A stretch of DNA of 32,671 nt from a virus, in IMG/VR virus record IMGVR_UViG_3300045131_003274, positions 1 through 32,671 of that record. One strand, 5' to 3'. The notes under the pieces are model-generated. The model was not told the DNA's origin. It did no database searches and worked only from the letters and a program-made list of their open reading frames with translations. Shown here piece after piece: positions 5,477 to 24,637 of the stretch. The number at the start of each line of letters is the position of its first letter. Position 1 is the first letter of the stretch. A program made the position numbers and the translations under genes.

Positions 5477-5567
5477 TCAATAAAAAAGTTAAGTCATTGT
5501 GCCAGAACATCTTGACAGCCCATGTATGTTTTCCTATAATGAGCCACATGGAAGCAAATACGAAAGG
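5477..5567 (+). promoter_or_regulatory. promoter/leader cassette, copy 2
   Basis: Same 91-bp layout as copy 1: upstream box, TTGACA (5512-5517), 17-bp spacer, TATAAT (5535-5540), then the conserved leader ending in CGAAAGG. The segment between upstream box and -35 and the spacer differ from copy 1, so conservation is confined to discrete blocks. It drives the gene at 5575. Confidence 0.92.
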
Positions 5568-5574
5568 GTCAAGG

Positions 5575-5925
5575 ATGAGCAAGTTCAGACTGCAACTTCA
5601 ACGAGACGCCGTCAAGCGGCGTGACACCTACCGGAACATGTATGAGTCTCCGGCGGTCAAAGCCTATGCTGCACAGCGATCAGTTCTTTGCAGCTCGTTC
5701 GAAAACAACGCTATGGGTAGCGGAGGCAGGATGAGTGTTGACATGCTTAGTTTGATCCGGGTGGCATGCCGCCACGGGTATCTGACAGCACTGCTCGCGG
5801 TGCTGCGCGGCTGGCAGGACGACAGTGTATACTTATGCATATTCGTATTCTGCGCGCTGTGGATTGTCTTTCTGGCAACGATCTTGCTGCTTTCGAATTC
5901 ACGAAGCATACAGGAGGCGGCATGA
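5575..5925 (+). CDS. hypothetical protein with C-terminal membrane segment
   Basis: A 116-residue protein: a basic N-terminal part ([17 protein letters not shown]), a middle part of low complexity, and a hydrophobic C-terminal segment (about residues 84-107, including [19 protein letters not shown]), so probably a tail-anchored or single-pass membrane protein. The ATG lies 7 nt behind the leader GAAAGG. Family not recognised. Its stop overlaps the start of the pentapeptide-repeat gene. Confidence 0.72.
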
Positions 5926-6473
5926 GAACTATCACAAAAGATGAACTGAAAGAAATACTGAGACTACACCTGAAATACATTATTGGTGAATCGGGCGGCA
6001 TCAGGGCCGACCTGAGCGGGGCCAACCTGCGCTGGGCCGACCTGCGCTGGGCCAACCTGAGCGGGGCCAACCTGAGCGGGGCCAACCTGAGCGGGGCCAA
6101 CCTGCGCTGGGCCAACCTGAGCGGGGCCAACCTGAGCGGGGCCAACCTGAGCGGGGCCAACCTGCGCTGGGCCGACCTGAGCGGGGCCAACCTGCGCTGG
6201 GCCAACCTGAGCGAGGCCAACCTGCGCTGGGCCGACCTGAGCGGGGCCAACCTGAGCGGTGGAACTGACATAATCAGCGTGTCTGGTATCGGGTCAGCGA
6301 GACGCATGACCACCTATCACATCCAGCAGGATCGTGTGTGGTGCGGGTGTTTCACCGGCACGCTTGCTGAGTTTGAGGCGCAGGTTGAGAAAACCCACAA
6401 GGACAACCCGAAACATCTGTCGAATTACCGGAATGCGATTGCGTTGCTCAAGGGCGCAAAGGAGGCGGTATGA
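5922..6473 (+). CDS. pentapeptide-repeat protein
   Basis: A 183-residue protein. After a 28-residue helical leader ([13 protein letters not shown]...), 17 perfect pentapeptides of the type A(N/D)L(S/R)(G/W/E) occupy residues 29-113; these fold as a right-handed quadrilateral beta-helix in known members. The last 60 residues ([20 protein letters not shown] and onward) form a small alpha/beta domain often found after such repeats in phage and bacterial proteins. Some pentapeptide proteins mimic DNA and bind gyrase, but nothing here proves that. AGGAGG lies 5-10 nt before the ATG; the frame is open further upstream only inside the previous gene. Confidence 0.88.
6006..6260 (+). repeat. 17 x 15-bp coding tandem repeat
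   Basis: The pentapeptide units are encoded by near-identical 15-mers of only a few types (GCCAACCTGAGCGGG, GCCAACCTGCGCTGG and the GAC variants). Codons are the same in almost every unit, which indicates recent expansion or homogenisation at the DNA level rather than old divergent repeats. Confidence 0.93.
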
Positions 6474-8827: not shown

Positions 8828-9101
8828 GAGCATAAAAGAAAACAGGACACAATCAGTGACGCCTTCCCAGATACTTAACCATGGCGGGGAAAAGATCATT
8901 GTTCAGTTTGTTCATCGCTACATCTGTAAGCGTGACAGCCTGGGCAGAAAAATCAGAGGCAGCGCTGTCCCTGTTGAGTTTCTGGGCATTTCGTGCTTTA
9001 GGTTGACGGACCGTGTAGCGATACCTGCACCGCCTGCATTGTTGGAAAGATATCATACGGTTGACACTGGCGCAGTTATGAAAACACAAAGGAGAACATG
9101 A
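8784..9101 (+). CDS. hypothetical protein, start uncertain
   Basis: GTG 8784 has AGGAG 6 nt upstream but would overlap the previous gene by 44 bases; GTG 8856 is an alternative with a weak ribosome-binding site. The shared part is beta-rich (EKIIVQFVHRYICKRDSLG, then VPVEFLGISCFRL) and basic. Family not recognised. The stop overlaps the start of the next small gene, which supports the frame being real. Confidence 0.5.
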   Translation: MTESVRLVNVISRSESIKENRTQSVTPSQILNHGGEKIIVQFVHRYICKRDSLGRKIRGSAVPVEFLGISCFRLTDRVAIPAPPALLERYHTVDTGAVMKTQRRT

Positions 9102-9226
9102 ACATTATCGGATCGACGTCTGCAGGGAACATTCTGGTTGAAATGAGCGATGCGGAGATTGAAGGGATGCATCGCATCCCGCATCTCAAAGGCGCCTTGA
9201 GGCGGCTCGGCGTCAACGTTCTGTAA
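9098..9226 (+). CDS. hypothetical 42-residue protein
   Basis: Begins MNIIGSTSAGNILVEMSD and ends LRRLGVNVL. A perfect AAAGGAG (9088-9094) sits 3 nt before the ATG, which overlaps the preceding TGA. The short helix MSDAEIEGMHRI suggests a small folded domain or binding peptide. No family recognised. Confidence 0.6.
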   Translation: MNIIGSTSAGNILVEMSDAEIEGMHRIPHLKGALRRLGVNVL

Positions 9227-9260: not shown

Positions 9261-9278
9261 CTTGAAATGGAGGAAGCT

Positions 9279-9515
9279 ATGACACTCGAAGATCGCGTGA
9301 AAGAGATTGTGGGATTGCATCTCGGCTTGGCGGACACCAACATCCCGCCAGACTCCAGGATTGTCGAGGACTTGGGCGCTGACACCTTCGACCTGATCGA
9401 ACTCGTCATGACGTACGAAGAGGAGTTCGGTATTGCGATCGATGGCGCCGACGCTGACAAGCTCACGACCGTCGAAGCGGTCATAGCATTCCTCAACGCC
9501 AGGGGTTGTTGCTGA
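9279..9515 (+). CDS. acyl carrier protein with Thr at the phosphopantetheine site
   Basis: The 78-residue protein aligns along its whole length with bacterial ACP: VKEIVGLHLG in helix 1, VEDLGAD before the attachment site, ELVMTYEEEFG in helix 2 and KLTTVEAVIAFLN at the end. ACP carries acyl chains on a 4'-phosphopantetheine attached to the Ser of DSL. Here that triplet is DTF (D35-T36-F37), so the attachment Ser is replaced by Thr and the following Leu by Phe. It may be unmodified and act by mimicking ACP as a binding partner, or be modified on Thr; this is inference. It ends in two Cys. GGAGG is 6 nt before the ATG. Confidence 0.88.
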   Translation: MTLEDRVKEIVGLHLGLADTNIPPDSRIVEDLGADTFDLIELVMTYEEEFGIAIDGADADKLTTVEAVIAFLNARGCC

Positions 9516-9532: not shown

Positions 9533-9940
9533 ATGAACCTGGAAACCTGGAACGCGTTATCGGAGACGCAGCGCGACCTCGAAGTCGCTAAGGCTTGCGG
9601 CGCTGAAATCCACAGTGAGCATCTCATGGAAGGACAGGATGACGGTCGCTACTATGAGTGTGCGCGCTGCAAGATACATTACAGTTGGCGGATTCGCGCG
9701 AAGAATGAAACGCCCAGGGGCCCGTGTCCGGGTCGCGACTACATCGGCGATCTTGAAGCGATGCGCGAGCTCGAGCTTGCCCTCGATGACGCCCAGTATG
9801 AGCGCTACGGGAAAGCACTGTGTGATCTCGCCGACCTCGAAGGCACGAGCGACACAGACCGCGCTCGATTGATGTGCTCAGCGAGCGCTGAGCGTCGCGC
9901 CTTAGCCTATGTCGTTATGAAAGGCCTTGAAAATGCCTGA
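9533..9940 (+). CDS. hypothetical protein with CxxC motif
   Basis: A 135-residue acidic, helical protein. ATG 9533 is used, although no good ribosome-binding site is present; TTG 9506 or 9509 next to AGGGG would extend it by 8-9 residues. The N-terminal half contains C...H then CARCKIHYSW and a later Cys, a possible zinc ribbon; the C-terminal half is helical with several Arg/Glu pairs. Family not recognised. Confidence 0.62.
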   Translation: MNLETWNALSETQRDLEVAKACGAEIHSEHLMEGQDDGRYYECARCKIHYSWRIRAKNETPRGPCPGRDYIGDLEAMRELELALDDAQYERYGKALCDLADLEGTSDTDRARLMCSASAERRALAYVVMKGLENA

Positions 9941-14748: not shown

Positions 14749-15292
14749 CGGTGTAGCGCGCTGCTGGATGTACAGGGTCTATGACCCGCACCGCGGCTTC
14801 AACTCGTGGCGTATCGCAGATAAGCTGATTAGAGCAGGCCTACGTGACTGGCTCTGGTACTGCTTTGAGCTCCGGTGCCAGCGCTGCGGTGAGTGGATAC
14901 CTGATCAGCTTGACGAAGCAGGTCGGCCCCTGCTTGCCGATGACAAGCAGCACGGATTCATCTGCCTGGACTGCGAAGAATCGCGGAGTGCTGCTGCCGA
15001 TCGCGATGAGGATTGGATGAAGCTTCTCAACACATTGCGATGCAAGCTGCGCGGCCACTCCTGGAAGATGATCTACAGCAACTGGTACCGGCGCCCGCTG
15101 TGTATTCATCGTGATGTGCTGTTTCGCTGCTCGACATGCGGAGTCGAGACCCAGCAGAATCGATGGGCGTTTGATCCTCATGTTGACAGCGGGAGCCTGA
15201 CTTACTTCTTCGGGCGGAGCGATTGGGTCGCCGAACACGAGCTCGGTAGCCTCGGGGCGATTCGCATCACAAGCATGCGAATACCTCAATAA
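14705..15292 (+). CDS. double zinc-ribbon protein, DUF1660-like C-terminus
   Basis: A 195-residue protein. The first part contains CQRCGEW and CLDCEES (about residues 59-92), a Cys4 ribbon. The second part, CKLRGHSWKMIYSNW followed by FRCSTCG (about 116-150), resembles the short phage DUF1660 pattern (Cys, then GH-W, then CxxCG). AAGGAG is 7 nt before the ATG; overlap with the previous gene is 44 bases. It is the last gene before promoter cassette 3, whose upstream box covers its stop. Confidence 0.68.
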   Translation: MRIARLQFRRSRGSDGVARCWMYRVYDPHRGFNSWRIADKLIRAGLRDWLWYCFELRCQRCGEWIPDQLDEAGRPLLADDKQHGFICLDCEESRSAAADRDEDWMKLLNTLRCKLRGHSWKMIYSNWYRRPLCIHRDVLFRCSTCGVETQQNRWAFDPHVDSGSLTYFFGRSDWVAEHELGSLGAIRITSMRIPQ

Positions 15293-15376
15293 AAAAGTTA
15301 AGTCATTGTTGAATCTCTCCCCGCCAGACGCCCTGCACTTTCCTATAATCGGCCACATGGAAGCAAATACGAAAGG
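15286..15376 (+). promoter_or_regulatory. promoter/leader cassette, copy 3 (degenerate -35)
   Basis: The upstream box (TCAATAAAAAAG, TTAAGTCATTGT), TTTCCTATAAT (-10 at 15344-15349) and leader (GGCCACATGGAAGC to CGAAAGG) are kept at the same spacing, but the -35 position (15321-15326) reads CCGCCA instead of TTGACA. It drives the gene at 15384, perhaps weakly or with an activator. Confidence 0.8.
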
Positions 15377-15383
15377 AAAGCCG

Positions 15384-15527
15384 ATGAAACACACAAACCA
15401 AGAAGCCTGGAAGTACAGCTACGCAGTTGACGGAAAGCCTGCCAGTGAAGCCGCCACCAAGCAGCAGCTGTCTAAGCATTCTTCAGATATCAAGCCCGCC
15501 TGGCGGCATCTTCGAAGCGAAGCCTGA
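15384..15527 (+). CDS. 47-residue leader gene, possibly frameshifted
   Basis: Begins MKHTNQEAWKYSYAVDGKPA right after the cassette-3 leader GAAAGG (7 nt spacing), so translation surely begins here. The zero frame ends at 15527. The +1 frame is open from 15388 to 15615 and its end (PQYLVKFRNHSGP, VPESWLKGLSL) reads like real protein. A +1 slip at CCC-G (15495-15498) would give a 76-residue fusion. It could be a programmed shift, a decayed gene, or chance. Confidence 0.6.
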   Translation: MKHTNQEAWKYSYAVDGKPASEAATKQQLSKHSSDIKPAWRHLRSEA

Positions 15528-17184: not shown

Positions 17185-17291
17185 CGCTACTCATCGCCTG
17201 TTTGTTGATTCACGGATTGCAACTTAACCCATGGCTTTACATCGTTGCTGTTGGCGTCAGGCTCATGCGCTTAGGAATGAAAGGCGATTAA
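17181..17291 (+). CDS. 36-residue membrane peptide
   Basis: Codes for MTLLIACLLIHGLQLNPW, then LYIVAVGVRLMRLGMKGD: a hydrophobic peptide with one or two short segments and a basic C-terminus. The ATG overlaps the previous TGA (ATGA), and the TAA stop lies in the A-tract of promoter cassette 4. Function unknown; the position and composition resemble the 30-residue peptide at 4175. Confidence 0.52.
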   Translation: MTLLIACLLIHGLQLNPWLYIVAVGVRLMRLGMKGD

Positions 17292-17375
17292 AAAAGTTAA
17301 GTCATTGTAACAAAACCGCTTGACAGCCTCCCGGAAGTTTCCTATAATGAGCCACATGGAAGCAAATACGAAAGG
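17285..17375 (+). promoter_or_regulatory. promoter/leader cassette, copy 4
   Basis: Identical to copy 1 from the A-tract to the -35 TTGACA (17320-17325), with a 17-bp spacer, TATAAT (17343-17348) and the conserved leader to CGAAAGG. The first four bases differ (CGAT for TCAA). It drives the gene at 17383. Confidence 0.92.
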
Positions 17376-17382
17376 CGCAAGA

Positions 17383-17727
17383 ATGAAGCTCAAAGAAGAA
17401 TGTGGCGTCACAATGTACTCCCTGGCGAACGCTGAGATGCTTTTGAACGCTCGCGGCGTGCCCATGGAAATCCGCGTGGAAGCCGACACCGAGACTGGCG
17501 ACTACAAAACCATCGCTGATTTCCGCGATGGCTCGTCCCACGTCTTCACAGGGTTCTCCGTAGGTTACTGCGGAGAAGGGCCCAGGGGCCTGCACAAGTT
17601 CCTGGGCATGTGCGGGATGCATATCCCCTTCGAGCAGATCAGCAATCCCGCCAAGCTCGGCGAGCGGGTCATCCTCACTGTTACGCCGTCACGCAATGTC
17701 GTGGCCCCGGTTTGGGGGTCGAAGTAA
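17383..17727 (+). CDS. hypothetical protein, first gene after cassette 4
   Basis: A 114-residue soluble alpha/beta protein (begins MKLKEECGVTMYSLANAEML) with several Gly and Cys (GYCGEGPRGL, GMCGMHIPF). The ATG is 7 nt behind the leader GAAAGG; longer frames would start in the promoter. No similarity to the other three cassette-led genes is visible by eye, so the cassette, not the gene, is the repeated unit. Family not recognised. Confidence 0.78.
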   Translation: MKLKEECGVTMYSLANAEMLLNARGVPMEIRVEADTETGDYKTIADFRDGSSHVFTGFSVGYCGEGPRGLHKFLGMCGMHIPFEQISNPAKLGERVILTVTPSRNVVAPVWGSK

Positions 17728-19491: not shown

Positions 19492-19655
19492 CGAAGTTCG
19501 GATGGCGATGCACGAATAAGAAGTGTAAGTGGAAGCAAGCCTACAGGCACCCCGAGCCGCTGTTCTATAAAAAGGGCGACCCGCCTGTCTATTACCACGC
19601 CTGCCCCAAGTGCGGTGAGCCCGCAAACATGGTTGACCTGCCTGATCCGAAATGA
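19488..19655 (+). CDS. 55-residue zinc-ribbon protein between the terminase genes
   Basis: Codes for MTKFGWRCTNKKCKWKQAYR, then ... YYHACPKCGEPANMVDL: CxxxxC and CxxC pairs about 26 residues apart, a Cys4 ribbon. Both ends overlap neighbours as ATGA, and AGGAG is 8 nt upstream. It may assist packaging-DNA contact, but this is only suggested by position. Confidence 0.72.
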   Translation: MTKFGWRCTNKKCKWKQAYRHPEPLFYKKGDPPVYYHACPKCGEPANMVDLPDPK

Positions 19656-21493
19656 GTCTTGCCCGTACATTGCAAGGCCTGAGTCCCGAGATGAAGGCAT
19701 TGGTGCAAGCCGGCATCAAGCAGATGAAGGCTACGGGGAGCTACGAGTACCTGGAAGCGCTCTACAAAGTTGATTATGAGCGCATCCCAGTAAGCCCTAG
19801 ACAGTTTCTCGATGACGACCAATACCTGGGCAAGTCAGTCAAGCACCTCAGCGAAACCTGGAAGCGGGAGTTCGACGAGATCTTCGCCCCTCTCAGTCTG
19901 ATCAACACACTGATCATCACAGGCGCCATCGGGACGGGAAAGTCAACGTTCAGTGCGGTGTGTCTGGCCCGAAAGCTCTACGAGCTGAGCTGTCTGAAAG
20001 ACCCTGCGCACTTCTACGGGTTGCTGCCCCGCTCGAAGATCGTGTTTGGCGTGTTCAACATCACCATGGACAAAGCGGATGACGTCACCGACCTGGTGCG
20101 AATGTACGTGGAGGCTTCACCATACTTCAACGAGCACTGTCCGGTCCGCCCCAGGCCACGCGAGCCCATGTTCTTTCCTACAAAGAATCTTGAGATCAGC
20201 ACAGGCAGTCTAGGCTCGCACGCCCTCGGCGACAACATGCTGAGCTTTCTGATGGATGAAGCCAACTTCTTCAAGAAGGTAGCGGCGCCTGACGCTACAG
20301 CCGAGAAGACCCGAGCCCATCAGTTGTTCAACGAAGCCAAGTCCAGGTTGACTTCGAGATTCATGAAGAAAGGGCGCACGCCAGGCCTCGCCATCATCAC
20401 GTCGTCCCGTAAGTTTCAGTCGAGCTTTCTTGATACACTTGTTGAAAAAGCCCGAGCCGAGAAGATCAAAACCTCACACGTCATCGAGGTCGCACTGTGG
20501 CAGACCAAGAACCCTAAAGACTTCAGCGGGGGCAGCATCGAAGTCCTGATTGGCTCTGAGCAGTACGCGTCCCGTGTGCTCGAACCAGATGAATTCGTAC
20601 CCGAAGGTGCCGAGGTCGTCAAGGTTCCTGTCGAGTACAAGCAGCAGTTTGAAGATGATCCTGATTTGGCGCTTCGTGACATTGCCGGGGTTTCCACGGC
20701 AGGGTCTGCCGCCTACTTCCCTGTCAAAGCACGCATCATGCAGTGTGTCGACAGAATGCGCAGCCACCCGTTCATGCGCAGCGAAATCAGTACACCGCTG
20801 GGCGCTGACATCAAGATCAGTGAGCTGTTCAAGCAGCGCAACCTTTGCCGCATCGAGCAGTCTCACTGGACGCCGATCTACCATCCAGGGATCGAACGTC
20901 ACATCCACATCGACTTGGCCTATAGCGGGGAGTGTATAGGTTTCAGCATGGCGCATGCCTACAACATGCAGGATGGTAGGTTCGGGTGTTTCGTGGATTT
21001 CATGCTGAGAATACGCCCGCCAGTAAAAGGCGAGCTCGAGCTGGGCGCTGTTGTTGAGTTCTGCAAGCATCTCAGGCACTGCGGGTTCAAGCTCAAGCAC
21101 ATCACGTTCGACTCGTTCCAGTCGCGCATGCCGATTCAGCTGCTCGTGCAAGCCGGGTTCAATTGCAGTCTACTCAGCGTCGACGCCATTCACTACACGC
21201 AGCTCAAGACGTGCTTCAACGAGAAGCGCATCAACATGTACGAGTACGCTCCGTTGATCGAGGAGTGTGTGGCGCTGAGAAAGGATCCGGCAGGCGGGCG
21301 ACCCCATCATCCACCAGAAGGTCTCGATGACGTCACGGACAGCCTCGCCGCCGTTGTGAGTCGATGCTACAACGTCAATGGCGCTACCTCGAAGAAAGGG
21401 ACAGTCGGAAAGGATCAGGTTTCCACAGGAGTTCCGAAAAGTCCGCTGTTAGTATCGTTTTCATCAAGCCACGATCAAGAGGAGATGCGATGA
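19652..21493 (+). CDS. terminase large subunit
   Basis: The 613-residue packaging motor. The ATPase half has Walker A GAIGTGKST (91-99) and Walker B LSFLMDE (197-203, catalytic Glu 203), with a coupling-type motif IITSSRK at about 248-254. The C-terminal RNase-H-like nuclease half has three acidic positions in the expected order: HIHIDLAYS (D421), ITFDSFQS (D487) and DDVTDSLAA (D563). The enzyme cuts concatemeric phage DNA and drives it into the prohead through the portal. Length and layout are normal. The ATG overlaps the preceding stop. Confidence 0.93.
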   Translation: MSLARTLQGLSPEMKALVQAGIKQMKATGSYEYLEALYKVDYERIPVSPRQFLDDDQYLGKSVKHLSETWKREFDEIFAPLSLINTLIITGAIGTGKSTFSAVCLARKLYELSCLKDPAHFYGLLPRSKIVFGVFNITMDKADDVTDLVRMYVEASPYFNEHCPVRPRPREPMFFPTKNLEISTGSLGSHALGDNMLSFLMDEANFFKKVAAPDATAEKTRAHQLFNEAKSRLTSRFMKKGRTPGLAIITSSRKFQSSFLDTLVEKARAEKIKTSHVIEVALWQTKNPKDFSGGSIEVLIGSEQYASRVLEPDEFVPEGAEVVKVPVEYKQQFEDDPDLALRDIAGVSTAGSAAYFPVKARIMQCVDRMRSHPFMRSEISTPLGADIKISELFKQRNLCRIEQSHWTPIYHPGIERHIHIDLAYSGECIGFSMAHAYNMQDGRFGCFVDFMLRIRPPVKGELELGAVVEFCKHLRHCGFKLKHITFDSFQSRMPIQLLVQAGFNCSLLSVDAIHYTQLKTCFNEKRINMYEYAPLIEECVALRKDPAGGRPHHPPEGLDDVTDSLAAVVSRCYNVNGATSKKGTVGKDQVSTGVPKSPLLVSFSSSHDQEEMR

Positions 21494-21829: not shown

Positions 21830-24637
21830 ATGATTCAACTACAACCCTGGACCCAACTCAAGAAGATCTTTGGCTTCGGCGCGGGTGCCGCACAAGGCAC
21901 CATCGGCCCCGTCAGCGTCAAAGATGTCGAGAAGAGCGTCTACGTCTACGGCCAAGACCCCATCAGCTCCTGGTATCGCGACCAGATGAAGCTTCAGGCC
22001 GACCGCTTCCAGCTTTATAAAGAATTTGAGGATCTCGACAGCAGCGACGTAATTTGCTGTGCACTTGACCTTTATGCCGAGGATGCAACTCAGGTTGACA
22101 TCACAACGGGTCGCACGATTTGGGTAGAAGCTGAGAACGAGAATGTCGAAACGATCCTGAACAACATGTTTGATCGCATCGGCGCGAATGGCTTGGCGTT
22201 TCCTATTGCTCGTGAAATCGCGAAGTTCGGCGACAGCTTCTCAGGCATCATCAACGAAGCCAAAACCGACGGCACTCCTGGGCGTATCGTGCAGATCGTA
22301 CCTTCGCCGGTATTCTTCACGTCGCGTGTCGAAGATGCCCATGGCAGACTTTCGGGGTTTACCGTAAGCCCTATCGAGCAGATGGGCTCACAGACCAGCA
22401 GCGGCGCCGTCGAGACCTCTGACGAAGCCGAAACCGTTGCAACCGACCCTCCCTGGAGTTTTGTACACTGGCGGGCTCTCGGAAGGAACCGTCAAGCCAT
22501 ACACGGCTCTTCGTTCCTGGCGAGCGCGAGAATACCCTTCCGCAGATTGCTGATGTGCATGACAGGGGATACGAGGATCTCGCTTCTTGATGGCAGAGAA
22601 GAGCGGATGGACGATCTTTTCAAACAATACGGCAAAGATCAGTGGTTTGATGTCTACTCATACGATGTTGACGCGCAGAAGGTTGTAGCTGGGCGAGCGC
22701 GGCATGCCGGTGTCACGCGAAAGAATGCTCAGCTTGTTGCTGTGACGCTTGACAACGGAGAGCGAGTGCGATGCACCCCGGACCATCGTTGGATGCTTAG
22801 GGACGGCTCTTACAAGGAAGCGCAAGCTTTGGTGCCTGGGGAATCATTGATGCCGCTGTATCGGGAGCGCGATGACCTGGGATATGAAAAGATCAGAAAT
22901 CCGTTTACATGCACGCTCTTGATGCAGGATATCCATACGCATCGTCGAATGGTTTCCGGCGTTCGCGCTGCTAGTGATGAGGTTGTGCATCACATCGATC
23001 TCGATAAGAACAACAATTCCCCTGATAATCTGGTATGGATGCCCAAAGCGGAGCATCTAAAATTCCACCATGAGCTAACAGCGCTTGTAAAGGATGACCC
23101 TGAATACCATGCGAAAAAGGTTGCTGCAGGGAAAAAGCGCTGGGCAGTGCCTGGTCGTCGAGAAGCAGCGTCAGCAGCGTTGCGTACAAGTTGGCAAGAC
23201 CCTGAGACAAGAAAAAATAGGATTGCAGGGCTACATCGTGCTGCGCCGCAAAATCGTGCCCACGCCTATGTAAATTGGGCGGACCCTGGTTATAGAGCCA
23301 AGGTGACTGTGGCGCAGCGAGATCATGCAAACAAGTGCTGGGAAGGTAACAGCGCACGACGCGAACAATATTCGATTATGATGAAAGCCCGCGAAGCGCA
23401 GCCTGAGCGCCGAGCTGCGGCGAGCGATCGCGCTAAAGCACAATGGGCAGACCCGCAGCGCAGGGCCCGCATTCTGCAGGGCAGGGCTACCGCTACGAAT
23501 CACAAAGTCGCAAGTGTTGAGTGGCTTGAGCAACGCGAAGACACCTACGACATTGTTGTTGAAGGTACGCATAACTTCGCGCTCACCGCTGGCGTATTTG
23601 TTCATAATAGCGAAGACAGTCTTGTCCAATACCGCCTCAAGCGCTGCCCTGATCGTTTCGCTTTCGGCATCAAAGGGCTCTCCGGCATGGCCCCTGAAGA
23701 CAGATTCAAGGTGATGAATCATCTGCGAACCCAGCTCAGGAAGAAGCAGCAGATTGAGCCGCAGACCGGCAACATCAAGCAGGAGCTGAATCCTGTAACG
23801 CCTGACGAAGATCTGATCTTTGACTCAGAAGCTGTAACCATCGAGCACTTCTCGGGCAGCGCGCAGATCAATCCGGTGCACGACATCGAGTATCTCAGAA
23901 AGCGGCTATGCGGGGCCTTGAAGATTCCCCCGGACTATCTGGGCTTCACAGACGCCTCGAAGGGCGGCACTCTCGGCGACAACCCGCTGAGCATGCTCGA
24001 CATCAACTTCGCCAGGATGGAAAAGCGCTTGCAGCGCAGTATCATGGAAGGCTTTTCGATCCTGTGCATGCTCGAGCTCGCCTGGTCAGGCATCGATCCT
24101 ACCGCAGTGGACAGCAAGTTCACAGTCCACATGAATCCGGTAAGCGCGCTCGACGAGCGTCAGCGTCTCGAGCTTGAAAAGGTCCGCATCGATACCATCG
24201 AGAATCTCCAGCGAATCGGCAAGGACTTAGGAATTGACAGCGACGAGTGGCAAGCCTATCTGTTGAAGCGCAGTATGATACCGCTGCACTTGATGCGTAC
24301 CTCCGGCAAGGAGCCCACCAAGATCATCAAAGGCAAGATGGATGTCATGACGGAGGCTGTAACGCAACGCGTAGAGGAAGCGCTGTTACAACACGACGAG
24401 CATAGCAAACTGTTCGAGTCAGCGTTATCCAAGGCCAAAGCAGTTTTCAAGACGGCACGCTGGCCGAATTCATACGCCCCTGACGATGGATTGGCGTTCA
24501 CAATAGAGCTGGCGCTGGCCGAAGCCAAGAAGCCTGGCGGTGCGAGCGTGGCTCCGCTGACTGAGGTTGTTAAACCTACACCTACATTGATGAGCTTGGT
24601 GGTGGAACGAATCAAAAAGAAAGAGGAAGAGCAATGA
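21830..24637 (+). CDS. portal protein (T4 gp20 type) interrupted by an intein
   Basis: The 935-codon frame encodes a portal split by an intein (residues 243-593). The joined exteins give a 584-residue portal, close to the usual size. Extein motifs support a T4 gp20-like portal: SSWYRDQ, EFEDLDSSDVICCALDLYAED near the N-terminus, EDSLVQYRLKRCPDRFAF just after the junction, and IPPDYLGF plus DNPLSMLDINFARME further on. The portal forms a 12-fold ring at one vertex and is the DNA channel and terminase docking site. The intein sits just before the conserved EDSLV-YR motif, so splicing is required for function. GAGTAGAGGAA lies upstream of the ATG. Confidence 0.9.
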   Translation: MIQLQPWTQLKKIFGFGAGAAQGTIGPVSVKDVEKSVYVYGQDPISSWYRDQMKLQADRFQLYKEFEDLDSSDVICCALDLYAEDATQVDITTGRTIWVEAENENVETILNNMFDRIGANGLAFPIAREIAKFGDSFSGIINEAKTDGTPGRIVQIVPSPVFFTSRVEDAHGRLSGFTVSPIEQMGSQTSSGAVETSDEAETVATDPPWSFVHWRALGRNRQAIHGSSFLASARIPFRRLLMCMTGDTRISLLDGREERMDDLFKQYGKDQWFDVYSYDVDAQKVVAGRARHAGVTRKNAQLVAVTLDNGERVRCTPDHRWMLRDGSYKEAQALVPGESLMPLYRERDDLGYEKIRNPFTCTLLMQDIHTHRRMVSGVRAASDEVVHHIDLDKNNNSPDNLVWMPKAEHLKFHHELTALVKDDPEYHAKKVAAGKKRWAVPGRREAASAALRTSWQDPETRKNRIAGLHRAAPQNRAHAYVNWADPGYRAKVTVAQRDHANKCWEGNSARREQYSIMMKAREAQPERRAAASDRAKAQWADPQRRARILQGRATATNHKVASVEWLEQREDTYDIVVEGTHNFALTAGVFVHNSEDSLVQYRLKRCPDRFAFGIKGLSGMAPEDRFKVMNHLRTQLRKKQQIEPQTGNIKQELNPVTPDEDLIFDSEAVTIEHFSGSAQINPVHDIEYLRKRLCGALKIPPDYLGFTDASKGGTLGDNPLSMLDINFARMEKRLQRSIMEGFSILCMLELAWSGIDPTAVDSKFTVHMNPVSALDERQRLELEKVRIDTIENLQRIGKDLGIDSDEWQAYLLKRSMIPLHLMRTSGKEPTKIIKGKMDVMTEAVTQRVEEALLQHDEHSKLFESALSKAKAVFKTARWPNSYAPDDGLAFTIELALAEAKKPGGASVAPLTEVVKPTPTLMSLVVERIKKKEEEQ
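22556..23608 (+). other. intein with HNH homing-endonuclease domain in the portal gene
   Basis: A 351-residue in-frame element. N-terminal splicing block: C1 in CMTGDTRISLLDG. Block B: RCTPDHRW (T74, H77). C-terminal blocks: YDIVVEGTHNF and ALTAGVFVHN with His350-Asn351, followed by Ser594 of the portal as +1 nucleophile. All residues for splicing are present. An HNH nuclease lies inside (EVVHHIDLDKNNNSPDNLVW, residues 142-161), followed by about 130 residues with a repeated W-x-DP-xx-R pattern (SWQDPETR, NWADPGYR, QWADPQRR) like NUMOD3-type DNA-binding modules. It probably homes into intein-less portal genes of related phages. Confidence 0.93.

Follow-up and report, generated by a model that had tools for sequence, protein, structure and literature searches.

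A tailed-phage acyl carrier protein with threonine at the phosphopantetheine attachment site, a possible non-loadable mimic of host acyl carrier protein

An acyl carrier protein gene without the attachment serine

This study examined IMG/VR virus record IMGVR_UViG_3300045131_003274, analysed at its entire length of 32,671 bases (the window), which is classed as linear and is possibly a fragment. The focus was a gene at 9279-9515 encoding an acyl carrier protein (ACP) in which threonine stands in place of the serine that normally bears the phosphopantetheine group, and which is tentatively read here as a mimic of host ACP that cannot be loaded. The open reading frame (ORF) runs on the plus strand from an ATG to a TGA and encodes the 78-residue protein MTLEDRVKEIVGLHLGLADTNIPPDSRIVEDLGADTFDLIELVMTYEEEFGIAIDGADADKLTTVEAVIAFLNARGCC (Table 1). 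The gene has a strong ribosome-binding site, and its guanine-plus-cytosine content by codon position (0.60/0.37/0.72) is typical of a real gene.

Table 1. Coordinates of the ACP gene, its neighbours, other window features and serine-less viral ACPs elsewhere
Feature	Position	Strand	Details and basis
ACP-fold protein, Ser-36 to Thr (DTF)	9279..9515	+	78 amino acids; Pfam, NCBIfam, alignment, predicted model
Ribosome-binding site region TGGAGGAAGCT	9268..9278	+	adjoins the ACP ATG on its 5' side; sequence
Codons ACC TTC (Thr-36 Phe-37), phosphopantetheine attachment site (usual: Ser-Leu)	9384..9389	+	sequence, alignment
Serine-less viral ACP, Pro (DPI)	L204:140-388
Serine-less viral ACP, Glu (DEL)	L186:1797-2033
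Serine-less viral ACP, Leu (DLL)	L173, near 1573-1599	-
Serine-less viral ACP, His (DHI)	L230:1840-2109
Small ORF upstream of ACP, MNIIGSTSAGNILVEMSDAEIEGMHRIPHLKGALRRLGVNVL	9100..9226	+	about 42 amino acids; sequence only; neighbour only
ORF downstream of ACP	9533..9940	+	135 amino acids; no Pfam or PHROG match; neighbour only
Terminase	19652-21493		31% identity to Maribacter phage terminase
T4-type portal with intein	21830-24637		intein carries HNH endonuclease
Pentapeptide-repeat protein	5925-6473		made of 15-nucleotide DNA repeats
Element of about 100 nucleotides, four copies	1734-1833, 5481-5580, 15290-15389, 17289-17388		putative promoter and leader

The predicted protein scored above the cut-offs of the Pfam PP-binding family (PF00550; E 3e-9, 37.4 bits, cut-off 20.8) and of the NCBIfam models TIGR00517 (acyl_carrier; 73.0 vs. 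70.45) and NF002148 (76.7 vs. 71), and it was additionally matched by the PHROG acyl carrier protein family with an E value of 6e-14. It shares 45% identity with E. coli AcpP, 51% with Aquifex ACP and 34% with Bacillus ACP. Judged from these sequence comparisons, the assignment of 9279-9515 as an ACP is far above chance. The AlphaFold2 model, built on an 18-row alignment, was confident (predicted local distance difference test score, 92.4) and showed a helical bundle with helices at residues 3-15, 36-50, 56-61 and 65-74, in which T36 opens helix II. With Foldseek, the model matched E. coli AcpP (4etw_B) at a template modelling (TM) score of 0.91 and a root-mean-square deviation of 0.9 Å. The helix-II docking acids D35, D38, E41, E47, E48 and E49 are retained, as are F50 and I54 according to the alignment, and the isoelectric point of 4.05 equals that of E. 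coli ACP. The ACP identity of the protein and its predicted fold are thereby established.

The predicted fold also matched the AcpP chain of MukBEF (9gm6_D), a match that fits another role for an unmodified (apo) ACP, namely constitutive association with a non-lipid protein of the MukB type, by which the host chromosome or other machinery would be altered. E. coli MukB fully accepts apo-AcpP, being activated equally by the apo and the modified (holo) forms (PMC8602292). However, the scan of window proteins revealed no partner gene, and this role appears quite improbable. MukBEF is moreover not known outside a subset of proteobacteria.

At the attachment site, where ACPs generally carry D-S-L-D, the window ACP carries D35-T36-F37-D38; the Thr-36 codon is ACC (9384-9386) and TTC follows it, changing DSL to DTF. 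The window protein is therefore a genuine ACP fold that lacks Ser-36, the residue that defines a functional acyl carrier protein, and the loss of this serine is established at the codon level. An earlier note, made from the sequence alone, had described a near-canonical ACP with threonine for the attachment serine and a change of DSL to DTF, and both points are confirmed by the family cut-offs, the fold, the docking acids and the codons. Because a single base change (TCC to ACC) converts serine to threonine, and the record is a metagenome assembly known without its reads, a misread base in a normal ACP was considered. However, the neighbouring codon is also unusual (Phe for Leu), so that DTF would require two close errors, and the remainder of the ACP gene is clean; the adjacent change lowers the likelihood of a simple sequencing error, and this explanation is regarded as very improbable.

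Rarity of threonine and recurrence of serine loss

The pattern EDLGxDT-hydrophobic-D was found in 29 viral stretches of the IMG/VR DNA, none of which lies in an ACP frame besides the window protein, whereas the same pattern with serine (TCN) in place of threonine gave 116 matches, mostly ACPs. Threonine as a recurrent viral ACP variant was therefore rejected. It was likewise rejected as a feature of cellular ACPs, since none of the eight stretches matching EDLGADT-hydrophobic-D in 84,980 bacterial and archaeal species genomes is an ACP. Threonine at the ACP attachment site is thus established as extremely rare, and no close relatives of the window ACP were found in the viral or genome collections searched.

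The earlier note had suggested a survey of other phage ACPs for the DTF change; such a survey yielded no second threonine form in IMG/VR but did reveal that the serine is lost repeatedly, with other replacements. Viral ACPs bearing EDLGAD were counted by scanning non-serine site codons by class (AGR was not scanned separately) and verifying each match against the ACP profile. At least 72 distinct serine forms were obtained among at least 77 forms, together with one form each bearing Thr (the window), Leu (L173), Glu (L186), Pro (L204) and His (L230). The window ACP is therefore one of at least five serine-less viral ACPs in the census. The four others keep the motif surrounding the lost serine, and no second PP-binding gene was found in any of their records. 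With the window excluded, as it was chosen for the trait, serine is lost in 4 of at least 76 viral EDLGAD ACPs. No serine-less ACP (site codons with first base A, C or G) was detected in 398 Pseudomonadota genomes, a comparison in which the stricter Ser(TCN) pattern matches 18 of 100 genomes; a clear viral excess of serine loss over bacteria is not claimed, as these numbers are too small and are suggestive only. Two side observations concern individual contigs: by eye, the ACP gene of L204 adjoins an apparent thymidylate-synthase-like gene and a DNA polymerase A-like gene, and another viral contig (L132) carries two neighbouring ACP genes, both with serine.

Five different residues in five serine-less viral ACPs would also be expected of a freely changing site. 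Gene decay is a serious rival to the reading as a mimic: a once-working auxiliary phage ACP, whose function no longer matters, would have lost Ser-36 and Leu-37 among other changes. The long branch of the window ACP (1.09 changes per column) and the failure to find a threonine-bearing relative are consistent with such relaxation. However, the ORF is full-length, is preceded by a strong ribosome-binding site and has the base composition of a coding sequence, the curated ACP cut-offs are still passed, the structural and helix-II acidic residues are intact, and the predicted fold is confident. On balance, decay is considered unlikely, while still deserving weight.

The phage genome and its possible host

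The window is a tailed-phage genome, encoding a terminase and a portal (Table 1) followed by genes that look like tail proteins by eye, with no family match. Pfam domains in the window include an AAA ATPase, pentapeptide repeats, DUF932 and a PDDEXK nuclease, and no phosphopantetheinyl transferase gene was found among the window proteins scanned. Additionally, the element of about 100 nucleotides that occurs four times consists of AAAAAAGTTAAGTCATTGT, then TTGACA/TATAAT-like hexamers (in most copies) and then CACATGGAAGCAAATACGAAAGG directly before a start codon; from this layout, it looks like a repeated promoter and leader serving several phage genes.

Sequence similarity of the ACP offers only a lead, and a weak one, to Verrucomicrobiota as the host. 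Matches to the window ACP (P0001) at E <= 1e-16 occurred in 47 of 145 sampled Verrucomicrobiota genomes, compared with 1 of 100 genomes in the phylum of an alphaproteobacterium (G001), 3 of 61 in that of a Gemmatimonadetes record (G006) and 0 of 59 in that of a Pirellulales record (G004). The best Verrucomicrobiota ACP has 53% identity to the window ACP. Host assignment by an ACP tree failed, as the ACP is too short and the window protein remained unplaced on its long branch. No close relatives of the terminase were found in viral contigs, and a terminase search of 115 Verrucomicrobiota genomes, run without a positive control, gave no matches.

Competition at host enzymes and comparison with known ACPs

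The consequence of the substitution can be judged from E. coli, where ACP S36T is neither phosphopantetheinylated nor acylated, is non-functional, cannot replace acpP and does not support growth (PMC3340395; PMC13343975). Because S36T abolishes modification, acylation and function there, the window ACP is probably permanently apo, unless the transferase of its own host is unusual. The possibility noted earlier, that threonine accepts the group poorly, gains no support from S36T, bearing in mind that these data come from E. coli and not from the phage's own host. The protein could still serve as a carrier if a host phosphopantetheinyl transferase accepted Thr-36, in which case the phage would add an extra ACP for lipid synthesis. 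Threonine does provide a hydroxyl, and most viral EDLGAD ACPs keep the serine and are presumably loaded; additionally, another phage ACP (L217) has DSF with serine, so Phe-37 alone does not preclude modification. The inert E. coli mutant and the absence of EDLGADT from cellular ACPs argue against this explanation, which is judged improbable.

Apo-ACP inhibits glycerol-3-phosphate acyltransferase and growth (PMC3896788), and the reading of the window ACP as a non-loadable mimic of host ACP, competing at host lipid enzymes or at AcpS (holo-ACP synthase), is therefore favoured, as plausible but somewhat short of probable. Under this proposal, a type-II fatty-acid ACP carried by the phage would have lost its attachment serine and would stay apo, while its intact acidic helix-II face would dock on those host enzymes whose recognition of ACP precedes, or does not require, the prosthetic arm. 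Candidate targets are AcpS, for which the protein would be an unmodifiable substrate analogue, and acyl-ACP-consuming enzymes such as those of the glycerol-3-phosphate acyltransferase route. Competition with host ACP may then slow or redirect membrane-lipid synthesis during infection. That the window ACP would inhibit lipid enzymes in its own host is what we infer from these combined comparisons.

The earlier note had likewise proposed a dominant-negative mimic, naming both lipid enzymes and SpoT as possible partners. The S36T and apo-ACP literature leaves lipid enzymes as plausible targets; SpoT is not supported, as it is reported in PMC3896788 not to bind apo-ACP. IscS does not bind S36T ACP (PMC13343975), and SpoT or IscS as the target is therefore unlikely.

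Several observations weigh against a mimic of host ACP. Some ACP partners, as with SpoT and IscS, require the modified form or reject S36T, and the substitutions L37F and A45T sit on the docking face, where they could weaken docking. Furthermore, the Pfam scan of window proteins detected no fatty-acid or lipid gene, and no close threonine-bearing relative was found.

A broader proposal is that substitution of the attachment serine is a recurrent means by which phages convert host ACP into a decoy that cannot be loaded. Such decoys would form a new class of host-takeover proteins, blocking AcpS or the enzymes that use acyl-ACP, with the Thr (window), Leu, Glu, Pro and His forms as members. This generalisation is held to be doubtful, and no phage-encoded ACP decoys were found in the literature searched. 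Serine-less viral ACPs bear on the reason for ACP genes in phages, and they separate an extra carrier from a binding decoy. If the decoy reading is true, these proteins would represent a phage route to halt or steer host membrane-lipid synthesis and would point to the enzymes that recognise apo-ACP.

Among known systems, AcpP of bacterial type-II fatty acid synthesis (PF00550, TIGR00517) resembles the window ACP in length, fold, isoelectric point and the acidic face of helix II, with 45-53% identity, but carries Ser-36 and Leu-37 where the window ACP has Thr-36 and Phe-37. Phage ACPs (phrog_5934 and relatives), for example those of Xanthomonas phage phiXF1, Brevundimonas phage Bajun and Erythrobacter phage R6L, are free-standing and phage-borne like the window ACP. 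Unlike it, all 16 loci examined from the phage collection (L214-L229) keep serine at the site. Within this set, the phiXF1 ACP gene (L215) lies between the gyrase B and gyrase A genes; L214 (CAKLQH020000007.1), listed as an Acinetobacter phage, carries rpmF-fabD-fabG-acpP in the bacterial order, so this stretch probably belongs to a host chromosome and not to a phage.

The viral proteins with DPI (L204), DEL (L186), DLL (L173) and DHI (L230) are ACP-like and have lost the attachment residue, as has the window ACP, but they differ from it in their site residues and are not close relatives. The E. coli AcpP S36T mutant shares the serine-to-threonine change in the motif and is unmodifiable (PMC3340395, PMC13343975). 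That mutant is man-made, whereas the window ACP is natural and carries the additional Phe-37; a substitution known from the laboratory thus has its natural counterpart in the window ACP.
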